64,000 bases of DNA from Boothiomyces macroporosus (taxonomy: Eukaryota > Chytridiomycota > Chytridiomycetes > Rhizophydiales > Terramycetaceae). The position numbers and the translations under genes are program-made. Each line of letters opens with the position of its first letter. Within the stretch, counting starts at the first letter, position 1. Below are positions 461-48,594 of the stretch, piece after piece. The stretch covers positions 1 through 64,000 of the forward strand of contig JADGKB010000008.1 in the NCBI GenBank assembly GCA_027604185.1, given 5' to 3'. The notes under the pieces are model-generated. The model searched no databases, had not been told where the DNA came from, and saw only the letters and a list, made by a program, of their open reading frames with translations.

Positions 461-533
461 GGTTCCATAGTGTAGTTGGTTATCACACCAGACTTTGAAT
501 CTGGTGACCCGAGTTCGAATCTCGGTGGGACCT
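461..533 (+). tRNA. tRNA-Gln (TTG), copy 1
   Basis: A cloverleaf can be read directly: acceptor GGTTCCA/TGGGACC (one G-T pair), anticodon loop CTTTGAA (anticodon TTG, reading CAA Gln), T-loop TTCGAAT, then TTTTT as a Pol III terminator. No intron. It is identical over its length to the minus-strand copy about 300 bp downstream. Confidence 0.95.
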
Positions 534-829: not shown

Positions 830-902
830 AGGTCCCACCGAGATTCGAACTCGGGTCACCAGATTCAAAGTCTGGTGTGATAACCAACTACACTATGGAA
901 CC
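830..902 (-). tRNA. tRNA-Gln (TTG), copy 2
   Basis: Exact reverse-complement copy of the 461-533 gene, with anticodon TTG and T-loop TTCGAAT, followed on the minus strand by a run of seven T. The two copies converge on the spacer between them, so their transcripts run towards each other. Confidence 0.95.
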
Positions 903-45817: not shown

Positions 45818-48594
45818 ATGGAAAAATCAAATTCGCTGCTGGCCAACATTGCACTTAGCATCAACAAAAGATTAGCAGGTAGGGGCGGCTGCGGACAAGT
45901 ATATTATGCGATTTATTCGGGAAGAGAAGCAGTAGCAAAAGTAGCAACGCAAACAAAGCATGAGGATATTATATTAAGAGAATACAAGATGATGAAGGAG
46001 CTGGCTTCCGAATATACCGTAGCTGCGATTGTGTTCTTGCATGGCGCATCAATTACATTGCCGGAAGAGGAAGATAGAGTCCCAATTCCGAGATCCTGCT
46101 TATTCATGGAGTGGATGAATTGGGGTAAGCTATTCCTAATTCAGGTACACTGGGACAGTATATTGTCAAGGAAAGCAAACTGGATGCAATGGAATCAGAA
46201 TTCATCAAAAAGCGAAATGTAATTCTGCAACAGAGAGCTCCGATTATGTTGATGGCATGTAAAGGAATTGAATATATTCACAGAAAAGGATATGTGCACT
46301 TGGACATCAAAGCGGAAAACGTCTTGTTGGATTATCACAATAATAAATTGCAGGCAAAGATTGCCGATTTCGGGTCAGTGCTCAAGGAAGGTTCCATTAC
46401 TGGTGTATTTCAAACGCCTGGATACGTGCCTCCAGAATCAAAGAAATCAAACTCTGTAAGATCAATTCTAACTTAGAAAACAAACAAATATGATATCTAT
46501 GCCTTTGGATGTATGTTAATTCACATTGTCATGCTGGAAAACTTTCCGTTCGTGTGGAATGGAACACCAAAGACATATGAAGGGAAAGAGGATTTCTTGA
46601 AGGAGCATCTAACTGATAAAAGCTTGCTCCAGCTTATATTGAAATGCATCGCGCCGGAGCCGTACAATCGCCCATCCATTTTGACTGTTGTTGATTTGGT
46701 TTCCAAGCTGAATGAAAACTCTTTCAAATTAGCAAAACCAGGAGAAGCTCCCTTACAAAAGAAGAATATTGCGGCTGGTTACTTGTTTTTTAATGTAGCT
46801 TTTAGCACAATGTCAATTGTAAATGAAATATCAGAGATGACTCAGGATACTGGTGCTGGATATTTATTCAAGGAATTGGGAATTTCTAAATCGAAATGCT
46901 CTTGGAATCAATTTTGGGAAAAATACAGTGCGAATTTCTTGAAAGATTCCAAGTACATTAATCAAGAGCGATTTAGAATAGAATTTGGCATCAACAGAAA
47001 CTACGTATCCATCGATAACATCAATAATACCCTATTCAAAGCTTTGCCAATTAAGCAAGAAATTGGAGATGAGCAAGTATGGATAGATCAAATCTTGGAT
47101 ATTTTAAACCAGACGCATGCAAAGTGTAAGCAGAAGAACGTTTATGTTTCAAAGATGGAGCATGGCACTTTCAATCTGGCGCCGGAGCTTAAAAACAATC
47201 TGAATAGCAATATGGTTTTTAAATTCGGCTCTCCTCAGAAACCTAAAGCAGCGATCGAAAAAGTGTTGCACTCAGAACAAAAGGTGGCAAACTTGATTAT
47301 TCTCGGTGCAAATCAAACGGGGAAATCGTCCTTAATTGGTAGTTTGATGAATGGGTAGGCGATTATTGACAATAGCGATGATGCAAAAGCTGCTACTAAA
47401 AACCTTGTTACTGGCCAAGCAGTCAAATCCACAATGGAACAGGCTTGGGTTTCTGGTGAAGATAGAATTGCTACTTGGGAATTCAAAACTGAAAAGTATT
47501 CAGTGGCCATTAATGATACACCTGGTCATAATGGCTTCTTGAGAAACTTGGTCACTGGAGCTTCAATCGTAACAAATTCTTGATCTTAGGCCGACTTTGC
47601 CCTGATTTTACTATCCCCAAACTTGGATCAATTTGAATTGGAAGACCATCCTGGCAGCGAAACTAGGAAACAGCTTTTGCTCGCAAAACATTTAGGAATC
47701 AATCGCTTGATTATAGTTGTCAACAAAATGGATGACAGCAATTACTCAGAAACGGTTTTCACTGATATTCAAATGAAATTTAAGAATATCTTGTCAATTA
47801 TTGGATATTTCCCTCAGTCTTGTCCTTTTGTACCAGTTTCGGGATTATCTGGAGAGAACGTGCTACAACCCTCTTTAAAAATGCCATGGTACAAAGGTTG
47901 GAAAGCTGATACATTCTATGAGCCATCGCATGGGATTTCCCTTACAGATGCAGTGAACTCTGTTGAAATAGTTTCTGATGATAACAAGCCTTTGCGTTTG
48001 CCTGTACAAAAAGTAGTTTCTGATGCAGCAGGCACGACGATCTTTGGAAGAATCATGTATGGGACGTTGACAACTGGTATGAAGATCAAAATCAATCCTG
48101 GCTCAATAATCACTGAAGTCGAATCTATTCACTCTAATGACGGTGCTCCATACACTACCGTGAACAAATATCACCAAGGGTTCATTAGAGTTCGTCTGCC
48201 ACTAATTAACGTCAACATCACAACGAAAATGGTGATCTCCAACCCAAAGAGAGGACCTGCAGTAGATATTTCTTCCTTTATCGCTATTTTAACTATATTG
48301 CCTATTCCAGGAAAGTTGGTGTCTAAAACCGCCTTGCAAATGCTAACTTCGACGATGAATAACTATTGTCAAATTACCAGACTGATTCAAAAGCTAGATC
48401 CGCATACAGGAAAGGTACTGCAAGAGCGTCCTAGATACCTTGTTCATGACGATGTAGCGGTGGTAGAATTGGTCAATTTACAAACAGTTTGTTTAGATAC
48501 CTTTACAGAGTTTCCAGAACTGGGAAGATTTACACTTCAGCAGGATGGAAGGGCGGTGGCAATCGGTGTTATCACATCAATCAGAAGAGCATAA
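45818..48594 (+). CDS. Protein kinase fused to an EF-1alpha-like translational GTPase
   Basis: Four introns (46125-46144, 46456-46476, 47355-47375, 47569-47589) join five exons into one 897-aa frame. Residues 15-285, protein kinase: Gly loop GRGGCGQV (21-28), Lys41 in AVAKVA, catalytic loop HLDIKAEN (154-161), DFG (177-179), KYDIYAFG (210-217), NRPS (270-273). Residues 287-470, helical linker of unknown fold. Residues 475-897, EF-1alpha-like GTPase: P-loop GANQTGKSS, IATWEFKTEKYSVAINDTPGH (G3, with the catalytic His), VNKMD (608-611), VSGLSGE, PWYKGW, then beta-barrel domains 2 and 3 ending FTEFPELGRFTLQQDGRAVAIGVI. The switch I RGIT segment is missing. N-terminally extended EF-1alpha relatives (eRF3, HBS1) exist, but I know of none with a kinase. 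Role unknown; a link between signalling and translation or mRNA surveillance is inference. Confidence 0.88.

Follow-up and report, generated by a model that had tools for sequence, protein, structure and literature searches.

A conserved protein kinase joined to a degenerate eEF1A-like body in chytrids of the Terramycetaceae

The elongation factor eEF1A, which brings amino acids to the ribosome, is among the most constrained and most abundant proteins of eukaryotes, and to our knowledge fusion partners of it are very rare. A locus of Boothiomyces macroporosus, a member of the Terramycetaceae (Rhizophydiales), which are a small family of soil chytrids, located in a window of 64,000 nucleotides (contig JADGKB010000008.1, positions 1 to 64,000), raises the question of whether a protein kinase and an EF-1alpha-like protein are encoded there as one polypeptide and, if so, from which factor the C-terminal part descends, what it still retains and what it may contribute to a kinase. 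The comparisons reported here indicate that the fusion is real and that it is one gene; its product has the appearance of a signalling protein of a kind not described before, made from translation machinery.

A preliminary description of the locus had proposed five exons, four introns and a protein of 897 amino acids, and splicing of 45818-46124, 46145-46455, 46477-47354, 47376-47568 and 47590-48594 does yield an open frame of this length. Alignment with the nearest database proteins revealed a further in-frame GT-AG intron of 21 nt, missed in that description, at 46778-46798 within the third of these exons: the seven residues which it would encode are missing in three orthologous proteins. 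The corrected gene, 45818-48594, has six exons and five introns and encodes 890 amino acids (Table 1), and its product aligns with P0001 of Boothiomyces JEL0838 over the full length, colinearly and without gaps. Because of this intron, the end of the kinase and the P-loop do not strictly share the exon 46477-47354, as had been stated, but the point which that exon was meant to carry holds: the link between the kinase and the eEF1A-like body is independent of splicing, since the frame of the linker is open with or without the intron. The chance of finding 292 stop-free codons, given the base composition of that stretch, is about 2e-10. Introns of 20-21 nt with GT-AG borders had moreover been ascribed to every other gene; in the one other gene checked, the HBS1 gene of the host, a 21-nt intron was found. 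That intron lies within the stretch coding for the HBS1 P-loop (L029, 1484-1504), is accompanied by further 20-nt candidates and is a good marker of the very short introns of this genome. On chytrid intron length, nothing was found in the open PMC literature.

Table 1. Features of the fusion gene, in positions of the window
Feature	Position	Strand	Remark
Exon 1, start codon and kinase N-lobe (glycine loop GRGGCGQV, K41, E55)	45818..46124	+	Start Met aligned in P0001-P0003
Intron 1, 20 nt, GT-AG	46125..46144	+	
Exon 2, catalytic loop HLDIKAEN (D156, K158, N161), DFG (177-179), PPE	46145..46455	+	
Intron 2, 21 nt, GT-AG	46456..46476	+	
Exon 3, kinase C-lobe	46477..46777	+	
Intron 3, 21 nt, in frame	46778..46798	+	Its seven residues absent from three orthologues
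Exon 4, accessory domain, linker and P-loop	46799..47354	+	
Accessory domain, residues 312-425, predicted helical, weakly EF-hand-like	46813..47154	+	Common to Globomyces kinases P0241 and P0242
P-loop GANQTGKS, residues 476-483; GKS kept, HVD of GHVDxGKS lost	47305..47328	+	
Intron 4, 21 nt	47355..47375	+	
Exon 5, G domain; ten-residue switch I/G2 deletion at about 47463/47464 (between residues 521 and 522)	47376..47568	+	
Intron 5, 21 nt	47569..47589	+	
Exon 6, remaining G domain (NKMD), eEF1A domains 2 and 3, stop codon	47590..48594	+	
12-residue opisthokont-specific eEF1A insertion, residues 659-670	47896..47931	+	

The earlier proposal of a single protein composed of a kinase and an EF-1alpha-like part is upheld by orthologues with the same order, which were found in Boothiomyces JEL0838 (P0001) and JEL0866 (P0002) and in Terramyces JEL0728 (P0003), so that the whole order, with a recognisable linker, is conserved across two genera and four genomes. 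The segment 290-897 of the 897-aa model was compared with 5.8 billion proteins; scoring covered the 7998 candidates with most words in common, and 153 matches were obtained. Among the best 120 of these, kinase and elongation-factor Pfam domains occur together only in the three best, which are 97% (JEL0838), 88% (JEL0866) and 83% (JEL0728) identical over the searched residues and are followed by HBS1 proteins at about 28% identity. For the linker, the identities to the three relatives are 100%, 83% and 69%, the last value referring to Terramyces, with 36 of 41 residues aligned. Compared with Terramyces P0003, the kinase is 93% identical, the accessory domain 82% and the G domain 89%, and the values for domains 2 and 3 are 90% and 97%; the canonical eEF1As of the same two species (Boothiomyces vs Terramyces) differ at 7 of 458 residues.

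The fusion is thus already deposited for three relatives, under no other name than 'translation elongation factor EF-1 alpha' or 'Elongation factor 1-alpha 1', and gene names of this kind alone conceal the kinase. Around the P-loop, the public model P0002 lacks 16 residues of the G domain and P0003 lacks 22; P0003 also has seven extra residues, possibly a retained intron. These defects look like annotation errors. A more radical error, by which gene prediction merged two genes or the assembly joined unrelated sequence, is highly improbable as an account of the fusion. Merges of a kinase with eEF1A do occur as likely artefacts of annotation, but here the frame through the linker is uninterrupted under either splicing, and three further deposited proteins share the order and a recognisable linker. 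A chimera in particular is very unlikely, because these proteins come from three other isolates. The likely artefact in question, P0170 of Leucocoprinus birnbaumii (697 aa), had been considered as an independent fusion and was rejected: a partial kinase domain precedes a canonical eEF1A with its native start, and annotation has probably joined two genes in this entry.

A search for orthologues of the eEF1A part that lack the fusion scored the 8000 candidates with most words in common and covered proteins of up to about 770 aa. None was present among the best 120 of 2835 matches, whose identity to the query is 31-36% and most of which are either unnamed or annotated as elongation factor 1-alpha. 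Furthermore, no paper on this protein was found by title or abstract start in the open PMC literature, which does not include most subscription papers.

Three parts make up the protein: residues 12-290 form the kinase, residues 312-425 a helical accessory domain and residues 467-890 an eEF1A-like body of three domains. In the 897-aa model, Pfam places Pkinase at 18-278 (E 9.6e-31), GTP_EFTU at 475-655 (2.3e-22) and GTP-eEF1A_C at 793-892 (4.2e-20), with GTP_EFTU_D2 below the cut-off, in agreement with the kinase domain at the N-terminus and the EF-1alpha-type domains at the C-terminus of one frame that had first been noticed. The glycine loop, the VAIK lysine K41, the alphaC glutamate E55, D156, K158, N161 and DFG are all present, and the HRD motif reads HLD (non-RD). 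The catalytic residues examined are thus kept, and the protein is an enzyme which probably phosphorylates other proteins. Its best sequence matches among PDB kinases are CERK1, PKR, BRI1, SOBIR1, CTR1 and IRAK4, and a TKL/RLK-like kinase would be the best reading of its family.

The nearest kinase relatives found are three Globomyces proteins, all without an eEF1A part, two of which have the accessory domain. These two, P0241 and P0242 of Globomyces pollinis-pini, share 36% and 34% identity with 90% and 92% of the kinase-plus-accessory query, and Pfam scans found no eEF1A part in either. In the host genome, P0242 has 14 matches, of which three belong to the fusion gene and 11 are confined to the kinase range; the exon 46477-47354 matches itself only, with no paralogue in the genome. 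The fold of the accessory domain is at best EF-hand-like (Cbl/STAT type) by prediction, and Foldseek returned no match for it at E 0.001. Within residues 1-235 of P0241, ahead of the kinase, two hydrophobic regions are visible as judged by eye, one at the N-terminus and the other at about 175-198. With this extracellular-looking N-terminus and a probable transmembrane stretch, P0241 looks like a single-pass membrane receptor kinase in a chytrid.

For the descent of the eEF1A-like body, the nearest candidates are eEF1A itself and the factors which share its architecture. HBS1, eRF3 and Ski7 all consist of an eEF1A-type body with an N-terminal extension, as does the fusion, and we know of no kinase among those extensions. 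By sequence, the C-terminal part scores 235 bits against eEF1A in the PDB, 155 against HBS1 and 150 against eRF3. It also carries the 12-residue opisthokont insertion, after WYK and at the position it has in eEF1A; in the alignment this insertion is absent from four HBS1-type rows (P0004, P0005, P0021 and P0024) and from the excavate eEF1A P0225. The N-terminal domain of HBS1, PF08938, is absent among the Pfam matches of the fusion at E up to 1, and is listed for most of the HBS1-like-named matches of the search with residues 290-897. The opisthokont-specific eEF1A insertion is called well known in PMC3699394. Since the insertion is carried, the C-terminal part most likely derives from eEF1A, as a duplicated opisthokont eEF1A paralogue and not an HBS1.

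The phylogeny of the GTPase against EF-1alpha, HBS1 and eRF3 which had been suggested as a check was run without an eRF3 row. In one tree the fusion falls outside the HBS1 clade (support 98/93) on a very long branch; in a second tree, where long branches joined, HBS1 stands beside the divergent Spizellomyces EF-1alpha. The fused branch reaches about six changes per column, and this length prevented a finer placement. The AU test rejected neither the grouping of the fusion with HBS1 (p 0.418) nor those with Terramycetaceae eEF1A (0.639), fungal eEF1A (0.121) or Spizellomyces (0.183). As exact phylogenetic placement failed, the insertion was used as the evidence of descent instead.

The canonical eEF1A of the host is intact on contig C16, identical over 458 residues to P0124 (Boothiomyces macroporosus). 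It resembles the eEF1A-like body in its three domains, in the insertion and in 34% identity over residues 5-441 of 458; it has no kinase or accessory domain and, unlike the fusion, retains switch I, the HVD of the P-loop, HTAH and EMHH. In the fusion and its three orthologues (4/4) switch I (RGITID) is lost through a deletion of the ten residues AERERGITID. The P-loop GANQTGKS keeps GxxxxGKS, with H15, V16 and D17 of the eEF1A motif GHVDxGKS changed, while DTPGH, NKMD and SGL persist, so that the nucleotide-binding motifs G1 (GKS), G3 and G4 are kept. HTAH is changed at three positions (H362S, A364M and H365N, with T363 kept) and EMHH at all four (E291H, M292S, H293N and H294D); we take both to be signatures tied to the binding of aminoacyl-tRNA in eEF1A. 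As a yardstick, 103 eEF1As of 440-480 residues that contain GITID were taken from the best 120 matches of the search for unfused orthologues, with Spizellomyces left out; five switch I positions are therefore invariant by the selection itself. At least 97% of these sequences agree at 218 positions. The fusion keeps 92 of them, namely 54 of the 122 that belong to domain 1, 20 of the 46 of domain 2 and 18 of the 50 of domain 3, and the 126 that are changed or deleted are spread over all three domains. No eEF1A partner surface is shown to be specifically kept by this 218-position comparison. Judging from these motifs, it is possible that the body binds a nucleotide and unlikely that it carries out ordinary GTP switching and tRNA delivery. 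The term EF-1alpha-like GTPase, used initially, is apt for the three-domain body of EF-1alpha type, and its second half is probably an overstatement now that switch I proves to be lost.

The same motifs bear on whether the C-terminal part could be a working translational GTPase of HBS1- or Ski7-like rescue or decay, to which the kinase would be attached as a regulatory extension at the N-terminus. The three-domain body, the retention of G1 (GKS), G3 and G4, the position of the kinase, which is that of the extensions of HBS1 and eRF3, and the AU result for a grouping with HBS1 would all suit such a role. It is nevertheless quite improbable, given that RGITID is deleted in all four sequences, that the host genome has a separate HBS1 gene and that insertion and PDB scores favour eEF1A over HBS1. 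On Ski7 as a pseudo-GTPase, nothing was found in the open PMC literature.

The reading to which we incline, tentatively, is that of a signalling kinase specific to the Terramycetaceae, in which a degenerate eEF1A would serve as a sensor or docking module. The eEF1A-like part would have given up tRNA delivery and the function of a GTP-hydrolysing switch, and would have been retained for its binding surfaces, directed at the GTPase centre or stalk of the ribosome, eEF1B, actin or another eEF1A partner, or perhaps for a fixed nucleotide-bound shape. It might then dock or regulate the kinase, whose output would track the state of translation or the partner, following the logic by which a HisRS-like domain regulates the kinase in GCN2. 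In favour of this reading we count the domain order in four genomes, the identities to Terramyces P0003 in the kinase and in domains 2 and 3, the catalytic residues of the kinase, the opisthokont insertion, the PDB scores, the switch I deletion, the 92 invariant positions kept and the Globomyces kinases, which have the accessory domain without eEF1A; the intact canonical copy on C16 and the yeast precedent for control of a kinase by eEF1A, described below, are counted with them. Against it stand the 126 of 218 invariant positions changed or deleted, the public models P0002 and P0003, in which part or all of the P-loop is missing, and the failure of the AU test to reject HBS1 or other placements. 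The membrane-receptor look of P0241, moreover, points to general signalling rather than to translation.

Alternatively, the eEF1A-like part may be a mere structural tail, or a module for dimerisation or solubility, with no tie to translation, on an ordinary TKL-like kinase responding to an unrelated ligand. The loss of switch I, HTAH and EMHH as functional eEF1A signatures and the plain or membrane-type kinases of Globomyces agree with this, and it is a serious competitor because no partner surface of eEF1A is shown to be specifically kept. Yet none of the three domains has been lost, domains 2 and 3 are so similar across genera (90% and 97%) as to indicate strong constraint, and GKS, DTPGH, NKMD and SGL persist, which leaves it somewhat doubtful.

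Within the signalling-kinase reading, a more specific and rather unlikely version would have the switch-I-less body occupy the ternary-complex or the eEF1B/stalk site and convert the state of the ribosome or of elongation into phosphorylation. By analogy, this might mean that the principle of GCN2 was invented twice, the second time from another translation factor, a suggestion that we regard with equal reserve. GCN2 is a kinase regulated by a HisRS-related domain (PMC4335047), and yeast eEF1A binds the Gcn2 C-terminus and is proposed to hold Gcn2 latent (PMC7140605); since these patterns are published, a sensor function is plausible. The fusion differs from GCN2 in that neither an RWD nor a HisRS-like domain is among its Pfam matches. 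If confirmed, a remodelled eEF1A copy on a kinase would provide a natural case in which the surfaces of a translation factor are separated from tRNA delivery, and would allow a direct test of whether scaffolds derived from translation repeatedly become kinase sensors, as in GCN2.

Other remodelled or fused factors offer partial parallels. For the divergent EF-1alpha of dual-EF species, Spizellomyces among them, the authors predict that part of its functions is retained, with EFL co-occurring as the more expressed factor (PMC3699394). The host of the fusion has a canonical eEF1A instead, and Spizellomyces P0169 differs from the fusion in retaining a switch I (RGTTID) and in lacking a kinase. 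That EFL had taken over and left eEF1A as a relic was considered as a cause and rejected here, given the canonical copy on C16. In Thecamonas, an 'apparent eEF1B-kinase protein fusion' is mentioned (PMC3938643); going by that description only, it likewise unites a kinase with a factor of the elongation cycle, but the factor is eEF1B, not eEF1A, and the lineage is another.

The eEF1A query gave ten matches in the host genome, including the canonical copy, the fusion gene, HBS1 (three pieces) and an EF-Tu-like gene on C34 (two pieces), with weak matches on C68 (26%), C149 and C87. None of these ten loci or pieces, all obtained with eEF1A as the query, looked like another canonical copy or clearly like an EFL. 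No eRF3 stood out with PF00009, eEF1A and HBS1 queries, which may be due to a gap in the assembly, to introns that split the gene or to an oversight. Two loci with an eEF1B exchange domain were found (G000:C29:63798-64055 and G000:C67:79017-79271), and a locus on contig C4 which combines RWD and kinase domains may be GCN2. Finally, the window itself holds two tRNA-Gln (TTG) genes close together and in opposite orientation, at 461-533 (+) and 830-902 (-).
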